Assembly: GCF_009189165.1 (NCBI RefSeq)
Contig: NZ_CP045118.1
Span: forward strand, 3,472,001-3,536,000
DNA length: 64,000 bases
Source of the DNA: Pseudomonas sp. SCB32
GTDB taxonomy: Bacteria; Pseudomonadota; Gammaproteobacteria; Pseudomonadales; Pseudomonadaceae
Direction of reading: 5' to 3'
The notes under the pieces were generated by a model. The model did no database searches and had not been told where the DNA came from. It worked only from the letters and a program-made list of their open reading frames with translations. Positions 1 to 40,361 of this stretch are shown in pieces; position 1 is the stretch's first letter, and each line of letters starts with the position of its first letter. The translations under genes and the position numbers were made by a program.

Positions 1-325
1 AGACATCCCGGACAGTTTTAGACGATGGACGATCGAGGTGGGCGCGAACCCCGTTGGCCATGGCTGGAAAAAAACGCCAGCCGCAATATCCGACTCCGTG
101 CGTCGGAAATAGCGCGCTCACCCGCACCTGCCGGGGGTTTGCCGGTGCCGGCGGTGGATATCTGGGCGCTGCCGGTTATGCTTTTTTAAGACCTTGCCGC
201 ATCGCAAGGCCGCCTGTTTTCACGCTTCTCGCAATCCGTATGACGATGGCATCAGCCCCAGGGCCTGAGTGCGGCAACGGCAAGAAGGGACTCCGGCCTT
301 TCACAGGAACAAGACGGAGAAGAAC
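1..325. other. Upstream region with no gene seen
   Basis: No convincing coding frame is visible before the MFS gene. The open frames here have no ribosome binding site and no recognisable protein sequence. The stretch presumably carries the promoter of the transporter at 326, but I could not place a -35/-10 pair with confidence. Confidence 0.5.
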
Positions 326-2002
<1,677 letters not shown>

Positions 2003-2301
2003 ATGACGCACCCGCGGGACGTACGAGACTTCGCGCTCGTGCGCCCCGCCCCGCGCATCGGAAGCGCATCCCGGCAACGGAGGCTTCGGTCCGCATTCCC
2101 GCCCGCGGCGACCGGCCGGTGATTGGACAGGGCTTCCATGTGTCACTAGCGTGAAGCATCCAACTCCTCTTGAAAACGTCACGCCCAGGCGTCTCGACGA
2201 CGCCCTGGATTGGCCCACTCCACCCATCTACGCCAGGCGTTGCCGGCACTGCTGAGGTTATCGCCGGCGAACGCCGCATCCATCGACTGAGGAAGGGAAT
2301 C

Positions 2302-5300
2302 ATGGCAAGCCAATGGCCGAGTCAGATCAAGCACGTGGTCGTGCTGATGATGGAGAACCGCTCGTTCGATCACCTGCTGGGGGATTACAAGAGCATCGAC
2401 CCGAACTGCAACGGCGTGGACCGCAAGGCTCCACGCAGCAATGCGCTCACGCTGGCCAGCGGCGGGGCTCCCATCCAGATCACCCAGACTGCGGAGTTGG
2501 CCACGGACTTCAGCCTCTGGGCGCCTCCGCCCTGCGAGAAGCTCGCCCCCGGCACGGACCGCGAGGGCGTCGATCTCGGCCACGAATACGCCGACGTGGT
2601 GAAACAGCTCACCGACGGACAATCCTCGGACCTGGCGGCTCCGGGCATGGGCGGTTTCGCCCAGAACGCCTATGAAAAAGCCAGGAAGGATCTCAAGGTC
2701 CACAAGGTCTACGCGCAATCAATGGCCCAGCGGGCGATGAACTTCGTGCCCTTCGGCGCCGATTCGGCCAGCGACCCCTTGCCGGCCATCCAGGGCCTTG
2801 CCCGGCACTTCACCGTCTGCGACCGCTGGTTCTCCTCGGTGCCCGGCCCCACTTGGCCCAATCGGTTCTTCGCCATGCTCGGCAGCAGCCACGGACGCGT
2901 CACCATGCCCAGCAGCGGCACCCTGCTCGCGGGCATCAAGAGCCTGATCACGCAGTTCGGCGAGGAGAGCATCTTCTCCCTGCTCAAGGCCAACGGGCAC
3001 GACGCGCGCATCTATTCCAACGGCAAGCTTCCCCTTGCCGCCATGATCAAGGAAGGCCTGCGGCACGCCTCCATCGATACCTTCAAAGCGGACGTCATCG
3101 ACGACAACCTGCCAGAGCTGGCCTGGATCGAACCGGGCTATGGGCTGCTGTACGACACCCTCGGGCCGAATGACTCGCATCACCCCTCCGAAGACCTGCG
3201 GATTGGCGACCGCTTCATCGGGGAAGTCTTCAACGCGCTGCTGGAGAATCAGGACGTCTGGGAAAAGACAGTGTTCGTGCTGCTCTACGACGAGCATGGT
3301 GGCTTCTACGACCACGTGGTGCCACCGCAAACCATAGCCCCCGACGACCGGCCGCCGGACGTCACCTGGAGCGGCCAGCTCCCGTTCACCCGCCTGGGCG
3401 TCCGCGTGCCGGCGATCTTGGCCTCGCCGTGGCTGCAGCCGGGACTGTTGAAGTGCAGCGGCGACCTCGACCAGGAGCACTACGACCACACCAGCCTGCT
3501 GGCCTTCCTGTGCGATCACTTCGCGTTGCCTCGAGAGAAACTGGGTGGACGGGTCCAGCAGGCGAAACACTTCGGCAACGCCGATATCTGGAGAAGCGCG
3601 GCGGTGCTCGACAAGTCGTTCCGCCTCGACCCGACCCCGGACCCGGAATGCGCCTACCGCACGAGTACGGAAACGCCCCTGGCCACCAGCATCCGCCAGG
3701 TACTGGACACCGCACTGGCCTACTTCGACGGGCAGAACCTGAAGCAGACCTGGAAGGACAGCGCCGACCAGGTCAGCCAGGTCCTGACCCGTGGCGAACG
3801 CTCGATGGCCAACCCGGACAAGCTGGAGGCCAAGCTGCGGCGCATGCAGGACCTGATACTCAACGCCTCCAGCCCCACCACCGTCCCCAGGACCCTCGGC
3901 ACCAGGGCGGCGCAGCCCACGGCTGAGGCCGCGCGCCTGCGTGTGCTCTGCCTGCATGGGGTCGGCCATGGCGAAGCCAGCCCGGACGAGTGGACCGTCG
4001 AGCCCGGCTGGCAAGCCCAATGGCGCTCCGCGATCAGCAGCAACCTGGCACGCAATGGTCGTGGTATCGCGCCGGAAGACATCGTTTTTCTCCGCTATGA
4101 CGACCTGTTCGGCGAGGGCCCGGACTTCGCCCAGATCGCCCGTGGACTGGCCATGCTGCTGGACGAAACCAGCGACCGTGGGAGCGATGGCACGCGCTCA
4201 TGGGGGGTGCCCGTCGACCAGATGTTGCGCTGGACGGTGGGCATGACGGTGCAATGGCTGGAGGACGCGGAGCTTCGTACCCGGCTCTGCGCCCGGCTGA
4301 TGGACTGCGTGCGCACCCTCCAGCCGCAGATCATCTTCGCCCACAGCCTGGGCAGCCTGATCTGCTACGACGCCTTCCGGCGCGCAGTGGTCAAGCCTGG
4401 CCCGGCGCTGGACACCATCGACGGCCGGGTGTTCGTCAGCTTCGGCTCGCAGATCGCCCATCCGGTGGTCATGCGCGAGGTCTGGGGCGGCCGTGTCATG
4501 CGCCTGCACGACAACGACCGTGGCATCCGCCGCTGGTACAACCTGTACAACCCCAACGATCGCGTCTTCACCCGCCCCATCACCTCGCCGGACTCCGCGC
4601 GCATCGACCTGACCACCGAGTTCGACATTCCCCTGCGCGATGACCTGCTCGACCTCGACCACTCCGGCGCGGCCTACCTGGACGATGACACCAGCCAGAC
4701 CAGCCTGTGGCCACAGCTGGCTCGCGGTACCGTGGCCGATCGCACCCTGGAGATTCCGGCCTTCCTCTCGCGCAGCGGGCAGCGCAAGCGCCGCGCCCTG
4801 GTCGTCGGCATCAACGATTACCCCAACCCGGACATGCGCCTCCATGGCTGTATCAACGACACCTACCTGATCAGCCGCATGCTCCAGGAGAGCGGCTATG
4901 ACGCTGCCGACATCCGCCTGCTGCATGACGCCCGCGCGACCCGCGCCAACTTCGAAGAACGCCTCGAGTGGCTGGTCGAGGGCACCCGCTCCGGGGATGA
5001 GCGCCTCATCTTCTACTCGGGCCACGGCGCCCGTGTGCCGGCCAGCAACGACAGCCGCGAAGCGGACCGCATGGATGAAACCCTGGTGCTGTATGACTTC
5101 GACTGGAACGACACCGCCAGCCACTTCACCGACAAACTCTTCCGCCAGTTCTACAGTCACCTGCCGTTTGCAACGGATGGGCGCGGCGCCAGGCTCAGCG
5201 TGATCTTCGACTGCTGCTACGCCAGCGGCATGACCCGTGGCACCGGGCGCGTTCGCGGCATCACCGCGCCCAGTGACATCCGTCACCGCGCCTTGATGTG

Positions 5301-5763
5301 GGACGAGACCTCGGGCGAATGGGACGAGCGCCCCTATGCCCAAGGCGATGGCAATCGCGACTTCACCCAGTCGACCACCGAGGGGACGCGCCTGCTCCAG
5401 CGCCAGCGCCGCACCCAGGGCACCGCCATCGAGCTGCGCCCCGACGACACCAGGCACCTCCTGCGACAGGGGCGCCTCTACGGGCATAACGGCCCCTACC
5501 TGCCCTTGCTGCTGTTCGCCGCCAGGGAGAATCAGAAGGCCAGCGAATACGAGGCCGGAACCGCCAGCTATGGCGCCTTCACCTATTCGCTGGTCGAGCA
5601 GTTGCGCGGGGCCAGGAACGCCGGCAGCACCCTGAGCTTCGAAGACCTGGTCGCCCGCGTGGGCAATACGCTGGCCGCACGCTCTCCGGGGCAGACACCC
5701 GAACTGGTGGGACCGCGCAATATACGTAACTCGGCCTGCCCATGGCTCAGGCAGGAAGGGTAA
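2302..5763 (+). CDS. Phosphoesterase / serine-hydrolase-like / caspase-like fusion protein
   Basis: This 1153-residue protein appears to hold three enzyme modules. Residues 1 to about 450 match the phospholipase C / acid phosphatase phosphoesterase family: MMENRSFDH near residue 16, DRWFSSVPGPTWPNR from 174, and LYDEHGGFYDH at 328-338. Residues about 545-760 look like an alpha/beta hydrolase, with LHGVGHG around H552 and the elbow FAHSLGS with Ser682. Residues about 830-1140 are a caspase/metacaspase (peptidase C14) domain, with VVGIND near 835, YSGHGAR (His908) and FDCCYASG (Cys972) as the His-Cys dyad. No signal peptide or membrane helix is visible. The ATG at 2302 follows GAGGAAGGG; in-frame codons from 2170 look non-coding. 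Each module is recognisable, but I do not know this three-part arrangement. Function is unknown; lipid attack gated by proteolysis, in defence, toxicity or signalling, is only an inference. Confidence 0.85.
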   Translation: MASQWPSQIKHVVVLMMENRSFDHLLGDYKSIDPNCNGVDRKAPRSNALTLASGGAPIQITQTAELATDFSLWAPPPCEKLAPGTDREGVDLGHEYADVVKQLTDGQSSDLAAPGMGGFAQNAYEKARKDLKVHKVYAQSMAQRAMNFVPFGADSASDPLPAIQGLARHFTVCDRWFSSVPGPTWPNRFFAMLGSSHGRVTMPSSGTLLAGIKSLITQFGEESIFSLLKANGHDARIYSNGKLPLAAMIKEGLRHASIDTFKADVIDDNLPELAWIEPGYGLLYDTLGPNDSHHPSEDLRIGDRFIGEVFNALLENQDVWEKTVFVLLYDEHGGFYDHVVPPQTIAPDDRPPDVTWSGQLPFTRLGVRVPAILASPWLQPGLLKCSGDLDQEHYDHTSLLAFLCDHFALPREKLGGRVQQAKHFGNADIWRSAAVLDKSFRLDPTPDPECAYRTSTETPLATSIRQVLDTALAYFDGQNLKQTWKDSADQVSQVLTRGERSMANPDKLEAKLRRMQDLILNASSPTTVPRTLGTRAAQPTAEAARLRVLCLHGVGHGEASPDEWTVEPGWQAQWRSAISSNLARNGRGIAPEDIVFLRYDDLFGEGPDFAQIARGLAMLLDETSDRGSDGTRSWGVPVDQMLRWTVGMTVQWLEDAELRTRLCARLMDCVRTLQPQIIFAHSLGSLICYDAFRRAVVKPGPALDTIDGRVFVSFGSQIAHPVVMREVWGGRVMRLHDNDRGIRRWYNLYNPNDRVFTRPITSPDSARIDLTTEFDIPLRDDLLDLDHSGAAYLDDDTSQTSLWPQLARGTVADRTLEIPAFLSRSGQRKRRALVVGINDYPNPDMRLHGCINDTYLISRMLQESGYDAADIRLLHDARATRANFEERLEWLVEGTRSGDERLIFYSGHGARVPASNDSREADRMDETLVLYDFDWNDTASHFTDKLFRQFYSHLPFATDGRGARLSVIFDCCYASGMTRGTGRVRGITAPSDIRHRALMWDETSGEWDERPYAQGDGNRDFTQSTTEGTRLLQRQRRTQGTAIELRPDDTRHLLRQGRLYGHNGPYLPLLLFAARENQKASEYEAGTASYGAFTYSLVEQLRGARNAGSTLSFEDLVARVGNTLAARSPGQTPELVGPRNIRNSACPWLRQEG

Positions 5764-5817
5764 AGAACCCGCTGCGCGTGCGGCGACCCGCGTCCCCATG
5801 AACCGGCCCCGCCGTCT

Positions 5818-5848
5818 CACTCGCTGTCGCAATGTGCGACAGCGAGTG
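5818..5848 (+). promoter_or_regulatory. 13-bp perfect palindrome, candidate activator site (or terminator stem)
   Basis: CACTCGCTGTCGC at 5818-5830 is followed after 5 bases by its exact reverse complement at 5836-5848. The core TGTCGC-N5-GCGACA looks like an enhancer site for a sigma-54 activator. Its centre lies about 85 bp before the -24 element at 5917, the usual distance. No T-run follows, which argues against an intrinsic terminator for the preceding gene, although that remains possible. Confidence 0.5.
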
Positions 5849-5916
5849 CTTCCTCCACCGCCGAAAAATAAGAACAAATCCTTTAAATTCAATTAGTTGA
5901 ATTACACATTCAGCAT

Positions 5917-5932
5917 TGGCACAGCCGTTGCG
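5917..5932 (+). promoter_or_regulatory. Sigma-54 promoter (-24/-12) for the aldehyde dehydrogenase gene
   Basis: TGGCACAGCCGTTGCG matches the TGGCAC-N5-TTGC consensus exactly, including the GG-to-GC spacing. It ends 48 bases before the ATG at 5981. A further 7-bp inverted repeat, AATTCAA-TTAG-TTGAATT at 5886-5903, lies just upstream. Confidence 0.8.
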
Positions 5933-5980: not shown

Positions 5981-7474
5981 ATGCTCGCTTCCCTGCCCAT
6001 CAAGCCCGAATCCCGCGCCTTCCTGCAGCGCGCGCCGAAAATGCTGATCGGCGCCGACTGGACCTCCGCCAGCGACGGCGCCCTGATGGACCTGCGCAAC
6101 CCCGCCACCGGTGAGGTGCTCTGCCAGGTCCCGGCCGGCACCGCCGCCGACGTCGACCGCGCCGTGCGCGCCGCGCGCCAGGCCTTCGATGATTCGGCCT
6201 GGAGCCGCACCCGTCCGCGCGAACGGCAGAACCTGCTGTGGAAACTCGCCGACCTGATGGAACGCGACGCCGACCTGCTGGCCGAGCTGGAATGCCTGAA
6301 CAACGGCAAGAGCGCGGCCGTCGCCCGCGTGATGGATGTGCAGCTGGCGATCGACTTCCTGCGCTACATGGCCGGCTACGCCACCAAGATCGAAGGCACC
6401 ACCGTCGACGTGTCCATGCCGCTGATGCCCGAAGGCGACTTCCACGGCTACATCCGCCGCGAGGCCGTCGGCGTGGTAGGCGCCATCGTCGCCTGGAACT
6501 TCCCGCTGCTGCTGGCCTGCTGGAAACTCGGCCCGGCGCTGGCCACCGGCTGCAGTGTGGTCCTGAAACCCGCTGACGAAACCCCGCTGTCCGCCCTGAA
6601 ACTCGCCGAGCTGGTGCTCGAAGCCGGCTACCCGGCGGGCGTGTTCAACGTCGTCACCGGCACCGGCATCACCGCCGGCGCCGCCCTCTCCCACCACCCG
6701 CTGGTGGACAAGCTGACCTTCACCGGCTCGACCCCGGTCGGCAAGCAGATCGGCAAGGCGGCCATGGACAACATGACCCGCGTGACCCTGGAGCTGGGCG
6801 GCAAGTCGCCGACCATCGTCATGGCCGACGCCGACCTCGCCACCGCCGCCGCTGGCGCCGCCCAGGCGATCTTCTTCAACCAGGGCCAGGTCTGCTGCGC
6901 CGGCTCGCGCCTCTACGTGCAGCGCAAGCACTTCGACAACGTGGTGGCCGACATCGCCGGCATCGCCAACGGCATGAAGCTGGGCAACGGCCTGGACCCG
7001 AGCATCGACATGGGCCCGCTGATCTCCGCCAAGCAGCAGAAGCGTGTGTTCGACTACATCGAACTGGGCCGCGACAAGGGCGCCACCATCGCCTGCGGCG
7101 GCGAGCAGTTCGGCCCTGGCTACTTCGTCAAACCCACGGTGATCGTCGACGTCGACCAGAAGAACCCGCTGGTGCAGGAAGAAATCTTCGGGCCGGTGCT
7201 GGTGGCCATGCCCTTCGACGACATCGACGACGCCCTGCGCCTGGCCAACGACAGCCCCTACGGTCTGGGCGCCAGCATCTGGTCCAACGACCTGTCGGCG
7301 GTGCACCGCATGGTGCCGCGCATCAAGTCCGGCTCGGTGTGGGTCAACTGCCACAGCGCGCTGGACCCGGCGCTACCCTTCGGCGGCTACAAGATGTCGG
7401 GCCTGGGCCGTGAAATGGGCGCCGCCGCCATCGAGCATTACACCGAGCTGAAATCGGTGCTGATCCGCCTGTAA
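5981..7474 (+). CDS. Aldehyde dehydrogenase, phenylacetaldehyde dehydrogenase-like
   Basis: This 497-residue NAD(P)-dependent aldehyde dehydrogenase is full length for the class. Catalytic Cys305 sits in GQVCCAG and the general base Glu271 in LELGGKSP; the Rossmann signature FTGSTPVGKQIG is present. By overall pattern it is closest to the FeaB/PeaE phenylacetaldehyde dehydrogenases, which turn phenylacetaldehyde from phenylethylamine into phenylacetate; this specificity is an inference. It has its own sigma-54 promoter and a strong terminator at 7525-7559, so it is probably transcribed alone. The nearest AcoR-type sigma-54 activator in the window is at 28593-30491, in a cluster resembling amine dehydrogenase maturation genes, which would fit an amine-to-aldehyde-to-acid route. 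A general or acetaldehyde-type dehydrogenase is the alternative. Confidence 0.85.
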   Translation: MLASLPIKPESRAFLQRAPKMLIGADWTSASDGALMDLRNPATGEVLCQVPAGTAADVDRAVRAARQAFDDSAWSRTRPRERQNLLWKLADLMERDADLLAELECLNNGKSAAVARVMDVQLAIDFLRYMAGYATKIEGTTVDVSMPLMPEGDFHGYIRREAVGVVGAIVAWNFPLLLACWKLGPALATGCSVVLKPADETPLSALKLAELVLEAGYPAGVFNVVTGTGITAGAALSHHPLVDKLTFTGSTPVGKQIGKAAMDNMTRVTLELGGKSPTIVMADADLATAAAGAAQAIFFNQGQVCCAGSRLYVQRKHFDNVVADIAGIANGMKLGNGLDPSIDMGPLISAKQQKRVFDYIELGRDKGATIACGGEQFGPGYFVKPTVIVDVDQKNPLVQEEIFGPVLVAMPFDDIDDALRLANDSPYGLGASIWSNDLSAVHRMVPRIKSGSVWVNCHSALDPALPFGGYKMSGLGREMGAAAIEHYTELKSVLIRL

Positions 7475-11182: not shown

Positions 11183-12877
11183 TCAAGCCAGCGGCGGCGT
11201 GCTCGGCGGCACCAGGCGCTTGGAACCGGTGGCCTCGAAGGCCGCGGCGAAGCGCAGCAGCGCGGAGTCGTCATAGGCGCGACCGGCGAAGGTCAGGCCC
11301 ACCGGCATGCCGATGTCGGCCATCACGCCCATCGGCACGGTAACGGTCGGCACGCCCAGGTGACGGATCGCCAGGTTGCCGTTGGCAACCCAGATGCCGT
11401 TGCTCCAGGCGATGTCGGCCGATTCCGGGTTCACGTCGGCGTCCGCCGGGCCCACGTCGGCCACGGTGGGGAACAGCACGGCGTCGAGCCTCAGGCCGTC
11501 CATCCAGTCTTCCAGGTCAAGCTTGCGGGTCCTCTCCAGGCCACGCAGGCCGTCCGGCAGGGTCTCGATCTGGTCCCAGGTCTTCAGGCCGCGCTTGGCC
11601 ATGTTGACGTACTCATCCATGCCGGCGACCAGGTCGTCCTCGCGGTTCGGCAGAGTGCCCGGGTCGTGGGGGAAGATCTGCGGACCATCGACGTCGGCCA
11701 GCTTGTTCAGCTTGGGGTCGCCGTTGGCACGGAGGAAATCGTCGAAGCCCCAGCCGGACAGCTCCCACAGTTCGTCATGCATGAACTGCTCGGTAACGAA
11801 GCCACGGTTGAACACGGTCGGCGCGCCAGGGCGGTCGCCCTCGCAGTTGGAGACCAGCGGGAAGTCCACTTCGACGACTTCGGCGCCGGCGGCTTCCAGG
11901 GCCTTGCGGGCCTGTTCCCAGAGGTCGATGACAGAGGCGCGGGTGTTGATGCGCTGGCCGGTCGGGCCGCCGATGCCGGGCTTCTCGCTGGTGCCGGCCA
12001 GTTCGTCCTTGTTGATGAACATGCGCGGCACGCCCAGACGCTTGCCCTTCAGGGCTTCCGGACCAGCAGCCAGGTCCAGGTAGGACGCCGGGCGGACTTC
12101 GGAGACGGCGGGGATCGGCACCCACGGCTGCAGGCGCCACAGATCGCCACGCGTGTCGGTGTCTTCGGCGACCACTACGTCCAGCACTTCCAGCAGGTCG
12201 GCCATGGTGCGCGCGTAGGGCACTACCACGTCCATGGTCGGGGTCAGCGGCCAGTTGCCGCGTACCGAAATCACGCCACGGGACGGGGTGTAGGCGCACA
12301 GGCCGTTGTTCGAAGCCGGACCACGGCCGCTCGACCAGGTCTCTTCCGCCAGGCCGAAGGCCGAGAAGCTCGCGGCGGTCGCGGTGCCGGCACCGTTGGA
12401 GGAACCGGAGGCGAAGGGCGCGGTGAGGAACTTGCGGTTGTACGGGCTTTCCGCACGGCCGTAGACGCCGCGCTGCATGCCGCCGTTGGCCATGGGCGGC
12501 ATGTTGGTCTTGCCCAGGCAGATGGCGCCGCCAGCGCGCAGGCGCTCGACGGTGAAGGCGTCGCGGTAGGCGACCAGGTCCTTGAAGGCCGGGCTGCCGG
12601 AGGCGGCGGTCAGGCCCTTCACCAGGTAGCTGTCCTTGGCGGTGTAAGGGATGCCGTCCAGCGGGCCGAGGGTCTCGCCACGGGCGCGACGGGCGTCGGA
12701 GGCTTCGGCTTCCTTCAGGGCCTCGGTGTTGCGCACGATCACGGCATTGAGCTTGGTCGGGCCATCGTAGGCGTCGATGCGCGCAAGGTAAGCCTGGACC
12801 AGTTCGACCGCGGTGGTGCGGCCCGACTCCAGGGCGTCACGCAGCTGCGCAATGGAAACTTCGGTTACCTCGATCAT
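11183..12877 (-). CDS. Amidase-signature family hydrolase
   Basis: This 564-residue enzyme of the amidase signature family hydrolyses a carboxamide to acid and ammonia. Lys81, in GPLDGIPYTAKDS, is the catalytic lysine. The serine-rich stretch reads FASGSSNGAG (Ser159) instead of GGSSGG, and the nucleophile region reads ETWSSGRGPAS (Ser183) instead of DTGGSIRxPA. All three catalytic positions seem filled but the motif is divergent. The C-terminal part (TVTVPMGVM, GLTFAGRAYDDSALLRFAAAFE) is typical of the family. I chose the ATG at 12877; the upstream in-frame extension looks non-coding. No signal peptide is seen. The substrate is unknown. It stands alone with its own terminator. Confidence 0.85.
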   Translation of the reverse strand: MIEVTEVSIAQLRDALESGRTTAVELVQAYLARIDAYDGPTKLNAVIVRNTEALKEAEASDARRARGETLGPLDGIPYTAKDSYLVKGLTAASGSPAFKDLVAYRDAFTVERLRAGGAICLGKTNMPPMANGGMQRGVYGRAESPYNRKFLTAPFASGSSNGAGTATAASFSAFGLAEETWSSGRGPASNNGLCAYTPSRGVISVRGNWPLTPTMDVVVPYARTMADLLEVLDVVVAEDTDTRGDLWRLQPWVPIPAVSEVRPASYLDLAAGPEALKGKRLGVPRMFINKDELAGTSEKPGIGGPTGQRINTRASVIDLWEQARKALEAAGAEVVEVDFPLVSNCEGDRPGAPTVFNRGFVTEQFMHDELWELSGWGFDDFLRANGDPKLNKLADVDGPQIFPHDPGTLPNREDDLVAGMDEYVNMAKRGLKTWDQIETLPDGLRGLERTRKLDLEDWMDGLRLDAVLFPTVADVGPADADVNPESADIAWSNGIWVANGNLAIRHLGVPTVTVPMGVMADIGMPVGLTFAGRAYDDSALLRFAAAFEATGSKRLVPPSTPPLA

Positions 12878-31147: not shown

Positions 31148-31310
31148 GACAAGCCCGGACCTTGCGAGCTAGAGGCAGGCAAGGCGAAAGACGCCGAGAA
31201 CGCGGAGTTAACGCTTGTTAATGAGCAGTTCGAGGCGACTTTCAACGCAGCCTGACCGACGCGCAGCAGGTCCGATCCCTCATCCGATTACAAGTACAAC
31301 AGGTGACCCC

Positions 31311-32474
31311 ATGAGCTACCCCTCCCTCAACTTCGGCCTCGGCGAAACCATCGACATGCTGCGCGAGCAGGTGCAGGGCTTCGTCGCCAGCGAACTCGCC
31401 CCGCGCGCCGCGCAGATCGACGCCGACAACCTGTTCCCCATGGACATGTGGAAGAAGTTCGGCGACATGGGCCTGCTCGGCATCACCGTCGCGGAGGAAT
31501 ACGGCGGCGCCAACATGGGTTACCTGGCCCACGTCATCGCCATCGAGGAGATCAGCCGTGGCTCGGCGTCGGTCGGCCTGTCCTACGGCGCGCACTCCAA
31601 CCTGTGCGTCAACCAGATCAAGCGCAACGGCTCGGCCTCCCAGAAGGCCAAGTACCTGCCCAAGCTGATCAGCGGCGAGCACATCGGCGCGCTGGCCATG
31701 AGCGAGCCAAACGCCGGTTCCGACGTGGTGTCGATGAAACTGCGCGCCGAGAAGCGCGGCGACCATTTCGTGCTGAACGGCAGCAAGACCTGGATCACCA
31801 ACGGCCCGGACGCCAACACCTACGTGATCTACGCCAAGACCGAGCCGGAGAAAGGCGCCCACGGCATCACCGCCTTCATCGTCGAACGCGACTGGAAGGG
31901 CTTCAGCCGTGGCAGCAAGTTCGACAAGCTGGGCATGCGCGGCTCGAACACCTGCGAGCTGTTCTTCGATGACGTGGAAGTGCCGGAAGAGAACGTGCTG
32001 GGCGCGGTCAACGGCGGCGTGAAGGTATTGATGAGCGGCCTGGACTACGAGCGCGTCGTCCTCGCCGGCGGCCCGATCGGCATCATGCAGGCCTGCATGG
32101 ACGTGATCGTCCCCTACATCCACGACCGCAAGCAGTTCGGCCAGAGCATCGGCGAGTTCCAGCTGATCCAGGGCAAGGTCGCCGACATGTACACCCAGCT
32201 CAACGCCAGCCGCGCCTACCTCTACGCGGTGGCCCAGGCCTGCGACCGTGGCGAGACCACCCGCAAGGACGCCGCCGGGGTGATCCTCTACACCGCCGAG
32301 CGCGCCACGCAAATGGCCCTGGACGCCATCCAGATCCTCGGCGGCAACGGCTACATCAACGAGTTCCCCACCGGCCGCCTGCTGCGCGACGCCAAGCTCT
32401 ACGAGATCGGCGCCGGCACCAGCGAAATCCGCCGCATGCTGATCGGCCGCGAGCTGTTCAACGAGACGCGTTGA
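31311..32474 (+). CDS. liuA: Isovaleryl-CoA dehydrogenase
   Basis: This 387-residue acyl-CoA dehydrogenase oxidises isovaleryl-CoA to 3-methylcrotonyl-CoA in leucine breakdown and passes electrons to ETF. The catalytic base is Glu247 in [15 protein letters not shown], placed as in isovaleryl-CoA dehydrogenases, not as in other acyl-CoA dehydrogenases. Other marks are [14 protein letters not shown] and the C-terminal [22 protein letters not shown]. The ATG at 31311 follows AGGTG; the longer frame from 31215 is not coding. It begins the liu structural genes, 163 bases after liuR. Confidence 0.95.
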
Positions 32475-32538
32475 TTGGGTTACTCGCTGCGCTCGCCCTT
32501 TGGGCCAGCGCAAGCGCTGTTCCGCGATAAAACCGCGG

Positions 32539-32637
32539 TCCCGCGTTCGCGGGGATGACGGGCGCGCTGGTCGCCCCACGTCGTTCCCGCGTAGCGGTTC
32601 CCGATAGGCGTCATTCCCGCGAACGCGGGAACCCAGA
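32539..32637. repeat. Palindromic intergenic element, CCCGCGTTCGCGGG family, pair
   Basis: CCCGCGTTCGCGGGGATGAC and the inverted GTCATTCCCGCGAACGCGGG lie 50 bases apart between liuA and liuB. The pair probably inserted into the operon. Confidence 0.85.
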
Positions 32638-32657
32638 AAACAGCCCCGGAGCCATTC

Positions 32658-34265
32658 ATGACCATCCTCGGCACCCAACTCAACACCCGTTCCCCGGAGT
32701 ACGCTGCCAACGCCGCGACCATGCTGGAGAACGTCCAGGACCTGCGCGCCGTCCTCGGTCGCGTCCATGAAGGCGGCGGCGCCGCTGCCCAGGCCAAGCA
32801 CACCGCGCGCGGCAAGCTGCTGGTGCGCGAGCGCATCAACCGCCTGCTCGACGCCGGCTCGCCCTTCCTCGAAGTCTCCGCCCTGGCCGCCCACGGCGTG
32901 TACGGTGAAGACGTCGCCGCCGCTGGCGTGGTCGCCGGCATCGGTCGCGTGGAAGGCGTGGAATGCATGATCGTCGGCAACGACGCCACGGTAAAAGGCG
33001 GCAGCTACTACCCGCTGACCGTGAAGAAACACCTGCGCGCCCAGACCATCGCCCAGCAGAACCGCCTGCCGTGCATCTACCTGGTGGACTCGGGCGGCGC
33101 CAACCTGCCGCGCCAGGACGAGGTGTTCCCCGACCGCGAGCACTTCGGCCGCATCTTCTTCAACCAGGCCAACATGAGCGCCCAGGGCATCCCGCAGATC
33201 GCCGTGGTGATGGGCTCCTGCACCGCCGGCGGCGCCTACGTGCCGGCGATGAGCGACGAGACCATCATGGTGCGCAACCAGGCCACCATCTTCCTCGCCG
33301 GCCCGCCGCTGGTGAAGGCCGCCACCGGTGAGGTGGTGAGCGCAGAGGACCTGGGCGGCGCCGACGTGCACTGCAAGACCTCGGGCGTGGCCGACCATTA
33401 CGCCGAGGACGACGAACACGCGCTGGCCATCGCCCGACGCTGCATCGCCAACCTCAACTGGACCAAGCAGGGCAAGCTCAACAGCCTCGCCCCGCGCGCC
33501 CCGCTGTACGCCAGCGACGAGCTGTACGGGGTGATCCCGGTAGACAGCAAGCAGCCCTTCGACGTGCGCGAGATCATCGCCCGCCTGGTCGACGGCAGCG
33601 AATTCGACGAGTTCAAGGCGCTGTTCGGCACCACCCTGGTATGCGGCTTCGCCCACCTGCACGGCTACCCGGTGGCGATTCTCGCCAACAACGGCATCCT
33701 CTTCGCCGAGGCCGCGCAGAAAGGCGCGCACTTCATCGAGCTGGCCTGCCAGCGTGGCATTCCGCTGGTGTTCCTGCAGAACATCACCGGCTTCATGGTC
33801 GGCCAGAAGTACGAGGCCGGCGGCATCGCCAAGCACGGCGCCAAGCTGGTCACCGCGGTAGCCTGCGCCCAGGTGCCGAAGTTCACCGTGATCATCGGCG
33901 GCAGCTTCGGTGCCGGTAACTACGGCATGTGCGGCCGCGCCTACGACCCGCGCTTCCTGTGGATGTGGCCCAACGCGCGGATCGGCGTGATGGGTGGCGA
34001 ACAGGCCGCAGGCGTGCTGGCCCAGGTCAAGCGCGAGCAGGCCGAACGCGCCGGCCACGCGCTGTCCGCCGAGGACGAGGCGAAGATCAAGGCGCCGATC
34101 CTCGAGCAGTACGAGCGCCAGGGGCACCCCTACTACTCCAGCGCGCGCCTGTGGGACGACGGTGTCATCGACCCGGCCCAGACCCGCGACGTGCTCGGCC
34201 TGGCCCTCTCCGCCTCGCTCAACGCGCCCATCGAAGCCACGCGCTTCGGCGTCTTCCGCATGTAA
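32658..34265 (+). CDS. liuB: Methylcrotonyl-CoA carboxylase, carboxyltransferase (beta) subunit
   Basis: This 535-residue biotin-dependent carboxyltransferase subunit moves CO2 from carboxybiotin to 3-methylcrotonyl-CoA, giving 3-methylglutaconyl-CoA. It is full length for the family. The acyl-CoA binding half has [13 protein letters not shown] and [18 protein letters not shown]; the biotin-side half has [22 protein letters not shown] and [16 protein letters not shown]. It works with LiuD encoded two genes downstream. The ATG at 32658 follows CCGGAG. Confidence 0.95.
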
Positions 34266-34275
34266 GGCCGCCGCC

Positions 34276-35073
34276 ATGACCGAATATCAGAACATTGAGC
34301 TCGACATCGACCCGCGCGGCGTCGCCAATCTCTGGCTGAACCGCCCGGAGAAGAACAACGCCTTCAACGCCCAGACCATTGCCGAGCTGATCCAGGCATT
34401 GGGCGCCGTGGCCAACGACGACCGTGTGCGCCTGGTGGTGCTGCGCGGCCGTGGCCGGCACTTCTGCGGCGGCGCGGACCTTTCGTGGATGCAGGAATCC
34501 GTGCAACTGGACTACCAGGGCAACCTCAACGACGCCCAGCAGCTCGCCGAACTGCTCTACAACCTGCACCAGCTGAACAAGCCGACCCTCGCCATCGTGC
34601 AGGGCGCGGCCTTCGGCGGCGGCGTGGGGCTGGTGGCCTGCTGCGACATGGCCCTGGCCGCCGAGGATGCGCAGTTCTGCCTGTCCGAAGTGCGCATCGG
34701 CCTGATCCCGGCCACCATCGGCCCGTTCGTCACCAAGGCCATCGGCCAGCGCGCCGCCACCCGCTACGCCATGACCGCCGAGCGCTTCAGCGGCGTCCGT
34801 GCCCGCGAACTGGGCCTGGCGGACGAGCACTACCCGGCCGCCGAGCTGGACGAGAAAGCCGACGCCTGGATCGCCAACCTGCTGAACAACAGTCCGGCGG
34901 CGCTGGTCGCCTGCAAGGCGCTGTTCCATGAAATCGGCGCCGGCGAACTGAATCCCGAACTGCGCCGCTACACCGAAGCGGCCATCGCCCGCATCCGTAT
35001 CAGCCCCGAGGGGCAGGAAGGCCTGCACGCCTTCCTGGAAAAACGCAAACCGGCCTGGCAGGAGCAAGTCTGA
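34276..35073 (+). CDS. liuC: Methylglutaconyl-CoA hydratase
   Basis: This 265-residue enoyl-CoA hydratase/isomerase (crotonase fold) adds water to 3-methylglutaconyl-CoA to form HMG-CoA. The oxyanion-hole segments are RGRHFCGGADLSWM and VQGAAFGGGVGLVACCD, and the catalytic region is LSEVRIGLIPATIGPFV. It starts 10 bases after the liuB stop, and its stop overlaps the liuD start (TGATG), so the four central liu genes are tightly coupled. Confidence 0.93.
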   Translation: MTEYQNIELDIDPRGVANLWLNRPEKNNAFNAQTIAELIQALGAVANDDRVRLVVLRGRGRHFCGGADLSWMQESVQLDYQGNLNDAQQLAELLYNLHQLNKPTLAIVQGAAFGGGVGLVACCDMALAAEDAQFCLSEVRIGLIPATIGPFVTKAIGQRAATRYAMTAERFSGVRARELGLADEHYPAAELDEKADAWIANLLNNSPAALVACKALFHEIGAGELNPELRRYTEAAIARIRISPEGQEGLHAFLEKRKPAWQEQV

Positions 35074-37034
35074 TGAGCAAGATCGATACTCTGCTGGTGG
35101 CCAACCGCGGCGAGATCGCCTGCCGCGTGATGCGCACCGCCAAGGCCCTGGGCCTGACCACCGTGGCCGTGCACAGCGCCACCGACCGCAACGCCCGCCA
35201 CGTCGAAGAGGCGGACATCGCCATCGACCTGGGCGGCGCCAAACCCGCTGAAAGCTACCTGCGCGCGGACGCCGTTCTCGCCGCCGCCAAGGCCGCCGGC
35301 GCCCAGGCCATCCACCCCGGCTACGGCTTCCTCTCGGAGAACGCCGGCTTTGCTCGTGCCTGCGAAGAGGCCGGGCTGATCTTCCTCGGCCCGCCGGCCA
35401 GCGCCATCGACGCCATGGGCAGCAAGTCCGCCGCCAAGGCGCTGATGGAAACCGCCGGCGTGCCGCTGGTGCCCGGCTACCACGGCGAGGCCCAGGACTA
35501 CGCCACCTTCCAGCGCGAGGCGCAGCGCATCGGCTACCCGGTGCTGCTGAAAGCCGCCGCCGGCGGTGGCGGCAAGGGCATGAAGGTGGTCGAGCGCGAG
35601 GCCGAGCTGGCCGAGGCGCTGGAATCCGCCCAGCGTGAAGCGCAGTCCGGTTTCGGCGACTCGCGCATGCTGGTGGAGAAATACCTGACCAAGCCGCGCC
35701 ACGTGGAAATCCAGGTGTTCGCCGATAAGCACGGCAACTGCCTGTACCTCAACGAACGCGACTGCTCGATCCAGCGCCGCCACCAGAAGGTGGTGGAAGA
35801 AGCGCCGGCTCCGGGCCTCTCCCTCGAACTGCGCCAGGGCATGGGCGAAGCCGCCGTGCGCGCCGCCCAGGCCATCGGCTACGTCGGCGCCGGCACCGTG
35901 GAATTCCTCTACGACGAAGGCAGCGGCCAGTTCTTCTTCATGGAGATGAACACTCGCCTTCAAGTGGAACACCCGGTCACCGAAGCCATCACCGGCCTCG
36001 ACCTGGTCGCCTTGCAGATCCGCGTCGCCCGTGGCGAGCCGCTGCCGATTACCCAGGAACAGGTGCCGCTGATCGGCCACGCCATCGAAGTGCGCCTCTA
36101 CGCCGAAGACCCCGAAGGTGGCTTCCTGCCCGCCAGCGGCCACCTCGCGCTGTACCGCGAACCTGCCGCCGGCCCCGGTCGCCGGGTGGACAGCGGCATC
36201 CGCGAAGGCGACGACATCTCGCCGTTCTACGACCCGATGCTGGCCAAGCTGATCGCCTGGGGCGAAAACCGCGAGGAAGCGCGCCAGCGCCTGCTGTCGA
36301 TGCTCGGCGAAACCGCCGTCGGCGGCTTCAAGACCAACCTGGCCTTCCTGCGCCGCGTGCTGGCCCATCCGGCCTTCGCCGAGGGCGAGCTGGATACCGG
36401 CTTCATCGCCCGCTACCAGGACACCCTGCTGCCCGCCCCCACCGCCCTGCCCGAGCGCTTCTGGCAGCTGGCCGCCGAGGCGTGGGTGCAGAGCGAAGCC
36501 GCCCGCGTGCGCGGTGACGATATCCATTCGCCCTGGTCCGCCCAGAGCGGCTGGCGCAGCGGCCTGCCGGGGGAAACCGACCTGCACCTGCTGGCAAAGG
36601 GCGAATCCCATGTGGTGCGCCTGCGCCATGCCGACGGCCAGCGCATCGCCCATCTCGACGGCCAGTGGCTGGATGTGAAGGACGGTGAAATCCGCCGCCG
36701 CCATCAGGTGATCCGCCGTGGCGACCACCTCTATCTGGAGTGGAACGGCGAGCTGGTCAGCGTGCAGCGCTTCGACCCCATCGCTGAGGCCGAGGCGGCC
36801 CACGCCCACCACGGTGGACTGGGCGCACCGATGAACGGCAGCATCGTGCGCATCCTGGTCGAACCCGGCCAGAGCGTCGAAGCCGGCGCCGCCCTGGTGG
36901 TGCTCGAAGCCATGAAGATGGAACACAGCATTCGCGCGCCGCACGCTGGCGTGGTGAAATCGCTGTATTGCAGCGAAGGCGAACTGGTGTCGGAAGGTAC
37001 GGCGCTGGTGGAGCTGGAAGAAGCCAGCGCCTGA
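35073..37034 (+). CDS. liuD: Methylcrotonyl-CoA carboxylase, biotin carboxylase/carrier (alpha) subunit
   Basis: This 653-residue subunit carboxylates biotin using ATP and bicarbonate. The biotin carboxylase domain occupies residues 1 to about 450 (LVANRGEIACRVMRTAKALG, the ATP-grasp loop KAAAGGGGKGM, and FFMEMNTRLQVEHPVTE). A linker follows, and then the carrier domain ends the protein with VLEAMKMEHS, where Lys615 takes the biotin, 38 residues from the end. It forms the active carboxylase with LiuB. The start shares its first base with the liuC stop. Confidence 0.95.
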   Translation: MSKIDTLLVANRGEIACRVMRTAKALGLTTVAVHSATDRNARHVEEADIAIDLGGAKPAESYLRADAVLAAAKAAGAQAIHPGYGFLSENAGFARACEEAGLIFLGPPASAIDAMGSKSAAKALMETAGVPLVPGYHGEAQDYATFQREAQRIGYPVLLKAAAGGGGKGMKVVEREAELAEALESAQREAQSGFGDSRMLVEKYLTKPRHVEIQVFADKHGNCLYLNERDCSIQRRHQKVVEEAPAPGLSLELRQGMGEAAVRAAQAIGYVGAGTVEFLYDEGSGQFFFMEMNTRLQVEHPVTEAITGLDLVALQIRVARGEPLPITQEQVPLIGHAIEVRLYAEDPEGGFLPASGHLALYREPAAGPGRRVDSGIREGDDISPFYDPMLAKLIAWGENREEARQRLLSMLGETAVGGFKTNLAFLRRVLAHPAFAEGELDTGFIARYQDTLLPAPTALPERFWQLAAEAWVQSEAARVRGDDIHSPWSAQSGWRSGLPGETDLHLLAKGESHVVRLRHADGQRIAHLDGQWLDVKDGEIRRRHQVIRRGDHLYLEWNGELVSVQRFDPIAEAEAAHAHHGGLGAPMNGSIVRILVEPGQSVEAGAALVVLEAMKMEHSIRAPHAGVVKSLYCSEGELVSEGTALVELEEASA

Positions 37035-37053
37035 ACCTGGCCTTGATGCGGCT

Positions 37054-37138
37054 TTCTGGGCTCCCGCGTCCGCGGGAGTGACGAGGTCAAGCGACGCACC
37101 ACGCTTTCCCGTCATCCCCGCGAACGCGGGGACCCAGA
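37054..37138. repeat. Palindromic intergenic element, CCCGCGTTCGCGGG family, pair
   Basis: CTCCCGCGTCCGCGGGAGTGAC and GTCATCCCCGCGAACGCGGG lie about 35 bases apart, flanked by TTCTGGG and CCCAGAAG, between liuD and liuE. Confidence 0.85.
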
Positions 37139-37181
37139 AGACGCAGCGCACCCGTTTCACAAACGAACACGAGGTTCCCCC

Positions 37182-38084
37182 ATGTCCCTCCCCCAATCCG
37201 TCCGCCTGGTCGAAGTCGGCCCGCGCGACGGCCTGCAGAACGAGAAACAGCCCATCGCCGTCGCCGACAAGGTGCGCCTGGTGGACGACCTCACCGCCGC
37301 CGGCCTGAGCTACATCGAGGTCGGCAGCTTCGTCTCGCCCAAGTGGGTGCCGCAGATGGCCGGCTCGGCGGAAGTCTTCGCCGGCATCGGGCAGAAAGCC
37401 GGCGTCACCTACGCCGCGTTGGCTCCTAACCTGAAGGGCTTCGAGGCCGCGCTGGAATCCCAGGTCAAGGAAGTCGCGGTGTTCGCCGCAGCCTCCGAGG
37501 CCTTCTCGCAGAAGAACATCAACTGCTCGATCAAGGAGAGCCTGGAGCGCTTCATCCCGGTGATGGAAGCGGCCCGCCAACACGGCGTGCGTGTGCGCGG
37601 CTACGTCTCCTGCGTGCTCGGCTGCCCCTACCAGGGTGAAGTGGACGTGGCGCAGGTCGCGGCCGTCGCCGCAGAGCTGCACGCCATGGGCTGCTACGAA
37701 GTCTCCCTGGGCGACACCATCGGCGTCGGCACCGCCGGGGCCACCCGCCACATGTTCGAAATCGTCGGCCAACGCGTGCCGCGCGCACAGCTCGCCGGTC
37801 ACTTCCACGACACCTACGGCCAGGCCCTTTCGAACATCTACGCAAGCCTCCTGGAAGGCATCGCCGTGTTCGACAGCTCGGTGGCCGGCCTGGGCGGTTG
37901 CCCCTACGCCAAGGGCGCCACCGGCAACGTCGCCACCGAGGACGTGCTCTACCTGATGAACGGCCTGGGCATCCACACCGGTATCGACCTGGACAAGCTG
38001 ATCGACGCCGGCCAGCGCATCTGCGCGGTGCTCGACAAGCCCAACGGCTCCCGCGTGGCCAAGGCGCAGCTGGCCAAGCGCTGA
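37182..38084 (+). CDS. liuE: Hydroxymethylglutaryl-CoA lyase
   Basis: This 300-residue TIM-barrel lyase splits HMG-CoA into acetyl-CoA and acetoacetate, the last liu step. Family marks are VEVGPRDGLQNEK at the N-terminus, SLGDTIGVGTAG, the metal-binding HFHDTYGQA, and the signature SVAGLGGCPYAKGATGNVATEDV with the active-site cysteine. The ATG at 37182 follows CGAGG. The acetoacetate it makes can be activated by the enzyme encoded next. Confidence 0.95.
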   Translation: MSLPQSVRLVEVGPRDGLQNEKQPIAVADKVRLVDDLTAAGLSYIEVGSFVSPKWVPQMAGSAEVFAGIGQKAGVTYAALAPNLKGFEAALESQVKEVAVFAAASEAFSQKNINCSIKESLERFIPVMEAARQHGVRVRGYVSCVLGCPYQGEVDVAQVAAVAAELHAMGCYEVSLGDTIGVGTAGATRHMFEIVGQRVPRAQLAGHFHDTYGQALSNIYASLLEGIAVFDSSVAGLGGCPYAKGATGNVATEDVLYLMNGLGIHTGIDLDKLIDAGQRICAVLDKPNGSRVAKAQLAKR

Positions 38085-38099
38085 CAGCTGATTCGACCT

Positions 38100-38145
38100 G
38101 TAGGAGCGCCCCATGGGCGCGATCGCGGGCATGGCCCGCTCCTAC
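38100..38145. repeat. Palindromic intergenic element, GTAGGAGCG family, short
   Basis: GTAGGAGCGCCCCATGGGCGCG and CGCGGGCATGGCCCGCTCCTAC are joined with almost no spacer between liuE and the synthetase gene. Confidence 0.8.
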
Positions 38146-38246
38146 GGGAGAACTCCCGCGCATTCCCACAAGAGACTTCCGCTCCTCCTACATCCCCGCG
38201 TCCGTGCCACACTGGTTAGATAAGAAAAACCGGACGGACGCCCGAG

Positions 38247-40199
<1,953 letters not shown>

Positions 40200-40230
40200 G
40201 GTTCGCCGGCGGCGGCGCATCTTTGCATTG

Positions 40231-40361
40231 CCCTCACCCCAGCCCTCTCCCTCAGGAGAGGGGGCTGATTGTGCCGGCTGACGCCACGGTTTCATCCTGC
40301 CCCTGACGGTCCCCTCTCCCGCTTGAGGAGCGGGGCACGCAGCCAGGGCTAGGGTGAGGGG
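40231..40361. repeat. Inverted-repeat element, CCCTCACCCCAGCCCT family
   Basis: CCCTCACCCCAGCCCTCTCCC at the left pairs with the inverted AGGGCTAGGGTGAGGGG at the right; further CTCTCCC and GAGAGGGG runs lie inside. This repeat type is common between genes of gamma- and betaproteobacteria. Confidence 0.75.

Follow-up and report, generated by a model that had tools for sequence, protein, structure and literature searches.

In the systems we compared, bacterial caspases and their partner enzymes are mostly encoded by separate genes of multi-gene conflict systems. In the VMAP (MoxR-vWA) systems of Kaur et al. 2020, caspase-bearing VMAP proteins always have an adjacent alpha/beta-hydrolase gene (PMC7159879). 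Phage defence is known to employ effectors that proteases activate, among them pro-nucleases activated by caspases (PMC12799240). The combination of a lipase and another hydrolase with a metacaspase in one chain was noted in 2012 in a GDSL lipase-amidase-metacaspase protein from Chitinophaga pinensis (PMC3501461). Here we describe a gene from Pseudomonas sp. SCB32 whose product joins three such modules in one polypeptide. It occupies positions 2302..5763 on the plus strand of a window of 64,000 nucleotides (contig NZ_CP045118.1, positions 3,472,001 to 3,536,000) and encodes 1153 residues, with a phospholipase C-like phosphoesterase domain at residues 9-410, an alpha/beta-hydrolase-like domain at about 545-810, and a Peptidase_C14 caspase domain at 829-1135.

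The likeness to the VMAP systems lies in a homologous hydrolase family found beside caspase-like proteases. The window protein differs in carrying hydrolase and caspase in one chain with a phosphoesterase added, the hydrolase of its fused family usually lacks the nucleophilic serine, and no VMAP, MoxR ATPase or vWA gene occurs in its one-gene segment or among the four flanking genes scanned. In the C. pinensis protein, Lipase_GDSL and Amidase_2 domains replace the phosphoesterase and hydrolase modules (PMC3501461). The caspase-activated nuclease canu and other gated effectors resemble the window protein in working model only, in that a protease frees a blocked effector; canu consists of separate genes and has a nuclease as its effector (PMC12799240). 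An earlier note on this DNA had been aware of no described protein with all three modules, and searches of the open-access PMC literature (subscription papers and supplements were outside this scope) showed none, nor did passages of PMC7159879, PMC8195603, PMC12799240 and PMC3501461; a term search of PMC6426788 gave no match. Within these searches, the absence of precedent holds for the three-module chain but not for its hydrolase-caspase half, which is foreshadowed by the VMAP gene pairing (PMC7159879). The caspase-hydrolase pairing and the lipase-amidase-metacaspase chain are already known.

The gene is complete, with an ATG start, a stop-free frame and its stop codon included, and a ribosome-binding site, AGGAAGGG, can be read at 2290-2297 upstream of the ATG at 2302. 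The motifs cited by the earlier note all fall within this frame: ENRSFDH at residues 18-24, DEHGGFYDH at 330-338, LHG at 551-553, AHSLGS at 680-685, YSGHG at 905-909 and DCCYASG at 970-976. Residues 431-544 (3592..3933, plus strand) form a variable linker with 20% identity to two distant homologues. At least 12 further full-length homologues, 38-78% identical to the window protein, occur in other assemblies, which excludes both chance and an error of frame fusion. The ratio of nonsynonymous to synonymous substitution rates (dN/dS) is 0.09-0.12 in all three domains within a nine-member Pseudomonas clade and 0.14-0.17 between the window protein and its homologue in P. rubra. Separate genes joined by a sequencing or assembly error, which the earlier note had named as a possible refutation, are ruled out by the full-length copies and the low dN/dS, and we consider the likelihood of such an artefact negligible.

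The N-terminal domain (2326..3531, plus strand) matches the Pfam Phosphoesterase family PF04185 at E 4.5e-62, with a score of 210.7 bits against a curated cut-off of 23 and coverage of profile positions 1-356 of 356. The nearest solved structure is that of the plant non-specific phospholipase C NPC4 (8hav, E 3.2e-41 over residues 8-409), and acid phosphatase 2d1g is far behind as a structural relative (E 3.4e-4). E18, N19, D91, H94, T184, H294, D330 and E331 are invariant in an alignment of 13 proteins, the window protein and 12 full-length homologues, on which all conservation counts given here are based. These residues correspond, in the same order, to NPC4 E23, N24, D76, H79, T158, H264, D299 and E300. 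The pairing of D91/H94 with D76/H79 follows from how the motifs are spaced; at that place the HMMER alignment as printed is offset. Alanine mutants of the eight catalytic residues of NPC4 lost activity or had it reduced, and NPC4 differs from the window protein in having a three-helix C-terminal domain and neither hydrolase nor caspase (PMC9837106). Judged by profile and catalytic residues, the domain is a member of the phospholipase C/NPC branch of PF04185; its score of 131.7 bits did not reach the equivalog cut-off of 580.25 for phosphocholine-specific phospholipase C (TIGR03396). Its location is probably the cytoplasm. Inspection of the N-terminus by eye revealed no signal peptide, in agreement with the earlier note, and the phosphoesterase match starts already at residue 9.

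The C-terminal domain (4786..5706, plus strand) is a metacaspase-like Peptidase_C14 caspase (Pfam E 9e-22; 78.3 bits against a cut-off of 21.4). The phosphoesterase and caspase families proposed in the earlier note are therefore recovered far above their cut-offs. The caspase dyad, His908 of YSGHG (codon 5023..5025) and Cys972 of DCC (codon 5215..5217), is invariant in all 13 proteins, as are C850, D853, S906 and D970, which we take to be equivalents of the substrate-pocket residues of metacaspase MCA2. The relatives of the domain in the PDB are metacaspases, with E values down to 1.7e-14. Metacaspases and orthocaspases (PDB 4f6o, 9n3d, 4afr; PMC3501461) share with it the p20 core and the YSGHG, DxC and GCIND motifs; the window protein differs in its architecture and in the long stretch separating its p20 and p10 parts. 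Orthocaspases cleave after basic residues (PMC6426788), and the pocket residues suggest that the window caspase probably cuts after Arg or Lys. Among the PADLOC profiles only that for a single-protein caspase matched (E 3.6e-16), and the curated cut-off for the EACC1-associated caspase NF047832 was not reached (40.7 bits against 140).

The middle domain (residues 545-810; 3934..4731, plus strand) is the least conventional of the three. Its predicted model aligns with alpha/beta hydrolases in VIA-align, where the best structural match is the DDHD domain of Nir2, a lipid-transfer protein. Three lines underlie its assignment to the alpha/beta-hydrolase fold: this structural alignment, the positions of the motifs and profile homology. 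In residues 540-826, Pfam found no family at E <= 10 for the window protein; the homologue at locus L037 gave a single match, at chance level. A sequence-profile search of the PDB yielded nothing above chance level (KaiC and MakB were among the matches), and Foldseek returned nothing at E <= 0.001 for the model, its top rows being glycosyltransferases. The hydrolase-like middle segment read by the earlier note is thus upheld by model and profile homology but not by any Pfam match in the window protein. Ser682 (codon 4345..4347, plus strand) is placed by alignment and predicted models at the nucleophile elbow, between a strand at 677-681 and a helix at 683-697. The window protein itself retains a full Ser682-Asp753-His787 set. 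Across the 13 fused proteins, Asp753 and His787 are each kept in 12, and position 682 is Ser in three (the window protein, P. rubra and Roseateles), Gly in eight, Val in one and Glu in one. With serine in only three of 13, most relatives probably have a middle domain without catalytic activity, and purifying selection, measured as dN/dS, still acts on it in the clade examined. Three catalytic centres had been read in this protein: those of the phosphoesterase and caspase are invariant throughout the family, but the hydrolase nucleophile is gone in 10 of 13 members. Ser685 is also invariant (13/13) and was considered as an alternative nucleophile, which is unlikely because it is located on the helix past the elbow.

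Proteins with only the hydrolase and caspase domains bear on the history of this serine. A hydrolase-caspase locus without phosphoesterase was found in another class of the phylum (398 genomes searched); in that locus, L168, the gene is split over two frames. Some match at E <= 0.001 was present in 194 of 195 genomes of the genus to which this locus belongs, mostly to other caspase regions, and 12 of the 195 matched at >=60% identity, with seven continuous frames, three split copies and two fragments. The continuous proteins (L170-L176) have the same domain order as the window protein and are 36-38% identical to it over both domains; they differ in lacking the phosphoesterase and in having the serine whole. 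The nucleophile motif AHSLGSLICYD is whole in all seven continuous copies and in two of the three split copies, and was not found in the third split copy or the two fragments. The nine two-domain copies with this motif all have Ser at the position equivalent to 682. A profile search at E <= 1e-4 found no phosphoesterase open reading frame (ORF) in any of eight two-domain loci of about 17 kb.

A tree of the hydrolase-caspase part divides 13 fused from 7 two-domain proteins by one 100/100 branch. The tree was rooted by midpoint only, and L037 and L038 have long branches whose joins may be false according to a program warning; under the midpoint root, L038 sits beside the two-domain proteins. If serine is ancestral, two changes are needed on the tree: either L037 and the nine-member clade each lost it, or a single loss was accompanied by a regain. 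In the sampled proteins, loss of the serine is limited to those that carry the phosphoesterase.

Two further features of the two-domain loci may be mentioned. In four of the eight, a second, smaller caspase-like ORF adjoins the hydrolase-caspase gene (L168 9287-10015, L181 9465-10583, L184 7096-8139 and L185 9356-10450; profile E <= 1e-4), which suggests a two-caspase unit. Five of the 12 genomes matching at >=60% identity (L168/L169, L177, L178, L179 and L180) carry the hydrolase-caspase gene in split form or as a fragment, so that the two-domain gene seems to decay often.

Among 168 ORFs, the middle-domain profile also picked out two stand-alone hydrolases (E 6e-9 and 8e-9), each some 290 residues long and bearing a GHSMG or AHSMG motif. 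Aligned with five stand-alone relatives by hhalign, the middle domain reached a probability of 99.0% (E 3e-18) over 238 columns. A protease is adjacent or in the same frame at 12 of 15 plasmid loci with stand-alone hydrolases, caspase-like at eight and trypsin-like at four; these 15 were picked by hand from two listings of 44 and 9 records with near-duplicates skipped, a set that leaves out H28, H29, H34, H37, H40, H42-H44, H48-H50, H82, H83, H85-H89 and 19 more. The caspase-like neighbours were recognized by Pfam at L134 and L136 and by His/Cys motifs and alignment at L135, L140 and L146-L149. These motifs are invariant across all eight, and the eight neighbours align with the window caspase by hhalign at 95.8% (E 7.9e-9) over 114 columns. 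The trypsin-like protease is encoded by the adjoining gene at L138, L141 and L145 and within the same ORF at L143. This last ORF, from Nonomuraea (3810-5879), contains a trypsin-like domain and a match to the stand-alone type of hydrolase and is, by these matches, an independent protease-hydrolase fusion. No adjoining protease was found at L139, L142 or L144; L142 has a CHAT protein two genes off. At three of the protease loci, a gene matching Pfam VMAP-M2 precedes one annotated as an AAA or MoxR ATPase. Given this adjacency of hydrolase and protease and the pairing described by Kaur et al. (PMC7159879), to which our loci were matched by description, the window protein has the appearance of a known functional pair joined into one chain.

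The fused family is scattered. Beyond the P. rubra homologue (78% identity), nine other Pseudomonas homologues at loci L028-L036, which we take to belong to the P. fluorescens group, are 62-64% identical to the window protein. Roseateles subflavus and a metagenome-assembled genome labelled Lentisphaera araneosa each have a homologue of 38% identity (41-42% in the multiple alignment). The count of homologues is a lower bound, coming from a scan of 590 stretches from 555 relatives with the best 80 retained. A gene common to the genus can be ruled out, since a full-length copy is missing from all 24 other genomes of the window genus. Broader searches, covering relatives, the class and the phylum, gave, among the matches listed, single-domain matches and the two-domain locus described above (G606); at most five candidates per genome (relatives) or two (class, phylum) were scored, so that copies may have been missed. 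Nothing points to a phage origin, in that phage records gave five partial matches and an alignment scan of viral contigs gave one contig with a phosphoesterase. Partial matches occurred in 244 plasmid records, none with 80% coverage. At L035, the final part of the gene is present twice, its extra copy standing downstream of the complete gene (12253-12600; caspase C-terminus profile E 2.7e-39), a sign of recombination at the 3' end of the gene.

In the window, the gene lies in a segment (2047..5805) that is absent at the same place in four sister genomes. Homology to these relatives ends at 1994-2046 and restarts at 5806-5809, with 191-399 bases of unrelated sequence in place of the segment. 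The segment is up to 3.76 kb long, a figure from the three genomes whose homology reaches 2045-2046, and the window gene is the only gene recognized inside it. It is flanked by conserved genes on the plus strand that lie outside the device, a major facilitator superfamily (MFS) metabolite/H+ symporter upstream (269..2002) and an aldehyde dehydrogenase downstream (5981..7474). The two stand next to each other, without the window gene between them, in 21 of the 24 other genomes of the genus, where 195-628 bases separate the matches, and were not found together in the remaining three. The GC content of the segment is the same as that of its surroundings, and a promoter and terminator scan gave nothing. 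The repeats in the region are two-copy families of 16-28 bases only, and hence no mechanism of mobility is shown. A dyad, CGCTGTCGCAATGTGCGACAGCG, is present at 5822-5844 upstream of the aldehyde dehydrogenase, in the part common to the sister genomes. In the same part, TTGGCAC-N5-TTGC at 5916-5931 is presumably a sigma-54-like motif. From the two together, the aldehyde dehydrogenase gene is probably RpoN-controlled, which has no connection with the inserted segment. Elsewhere in the window, the large minus-strand ORFs at 31242-34277, 34968-38132 and 38142-40295 match no Pfam family.

A shared operon partner was sought by comparing the four flanking genes scanned (MFS, aldehyde dehydrogenase, amino-acid permease and AraC regulator) with 12 homologous loci, and was rejected, the only match being a weak one to the AraC domain, at L038. 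The neighbours differ among P. rubra, L028-L036, L037 and L038. In seven of the nine loci L028-L036, an upstream gene clusters with the L030 sulfate permease, and in eight of the nine a downstream gene clusters with the L030 Bro-N gene; the genes between or past these are variable. Within 8 kb downstream, all nine loci carry one or more genes of restriction, defence or HNH type. These include a DNA cytosine methyltransferase (L028, L030), MzaB/C/D-like genes (L032, 11966-17360), McrBC (L036), weaker matches to MzaD and PDC-M33A (L035), and HNH nucleases, identified by profile at L029 (weakly) and L031 and by clustering with L031 at L033 and L034. No convincing defence neighbour was found among the few genes scanned at P. 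rubra, L037, L038 and the window; at L037 and L038, one protein each gave no defence profile, and the DinG-type helicase match beside the P. rubra gene is uninformative.

Taken together, a caspase-controlled, lipid-attacking conflict effector in a single polypeptide, serving cell suicide or defence, is the reading we prefer, at a little short of an even chance. Cleavage of the chain, attack on phospholipid and a defence role are suggested by the company these domains keep and by protease-gated effectors such as canu. In the scheme we envisage, the metacaspase-like protease would sit on a hydrolase-fold module of the caspase-partner kind, with a probably cytoplasmic phospholipase C-like phosphoesterase fused in front. 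Some trigger would switch the caspase on, and it would cleave its own chain; the likeliest places are the variable linker and the vicinity of the basic stretch preceding the caspase. Cleavage would lift a restraint from the phosphoesterase, which may then hydrolyse phospholipids of the inner membrane so that the cell stops. Such caspase-driven release of a lipid-attacking enzyme, which the earlier note had also proposed, is a reasonable idea. In most family members the hydrolase module might have turned into a spacer that binds lipid or has a regulatory function but no longer catalyses, the attack on lipid having passed to the phosphoesterase. The more specific version, a one-gene caspase-gated phospholipase C acting as a mobile suicide device, in which that role was handed from the hydrolase partner to a newly fused phospholipase C, we offer only tentatively.

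Several points weigh against the effector reading. The full-length structure model has a predicted local distance difference test (pLDDT) of 49, too poor for domain contacts, and no cut site can be named from the 13-protein alignment, in which the invariant basic residues are R500 alone in the linker and R1010, R1036 and R1046 in the p20-p10 region of the caspase. Since PF04185 includes phosphatases as well, the substrate might be something other than lipid. The neighbours in the window are metabolic, and no sensor domain or partner gene was recognized. The count of defence neighbours comes from hand-picked genes in one Pseudomonas clade without a background control, and five neighbour proteins at L031, L033, L034 and L036 gave no defence profile. 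The lack of a conserved cut site would suit a conflict effector that works without release, its caspase cutting other proteins of the cell or phage; the phosphoesterase and hydrolase modules would then either work alongside it or provide the membrane sensor and anchor that turn the caspase on in response to lipid state. The match of the middle domain to the Nir2 DDHD domain would also fit such an arrangement, and loss of the serine with retention of Asp753 and His787 under purifying selection suits a binding role. However, a pure sensor would not need the NPC4 catalytic residues, every one of which the phosphoesterase retains in all 13 proteins, and we regard this account as unlikely.

Phospholipases and phosphatases with a metabolic role, or that are secreted, are common among proteins of the PF04185 family. 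Together with the symporter and aldehyde dehydrogenase on either side, this could indicate an enzyme of phospholipid or phosphoester turnover, serving stress or phosphate supply and restrained or matured by its own caspase, with no part in conflict. We consider this quite improbable, given a gene foreign to its site in the sister genomes and without a full-length copy in the genus genomes searched, an N-terminus lacking a visible signal peptide, and a hydrolase-caspase half related to conflict-system stock. An effector secreted or injected against competitors, as through type VI secretion, and matured by the caspase domain is very improbable; no secretion gene was recognized in the subset of neighbours scanned, and the segment has no second gene that might confer immunity.

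The natural fusion of these modules suggests that the partners act on each other, and a single-gene system of this kind is a compact test bed in which protease gating of membrane attack could be probed with a handful of point mutants. An effector swap within a conflict protein would be documented if the hydrolase serine is lost only in fusions with a phospholipase C. If the tentative version, a caspase-gated phospholipase C, is true, the window protein would be a caspase of bacteria that sets free a membrane killer contained in its own chain.

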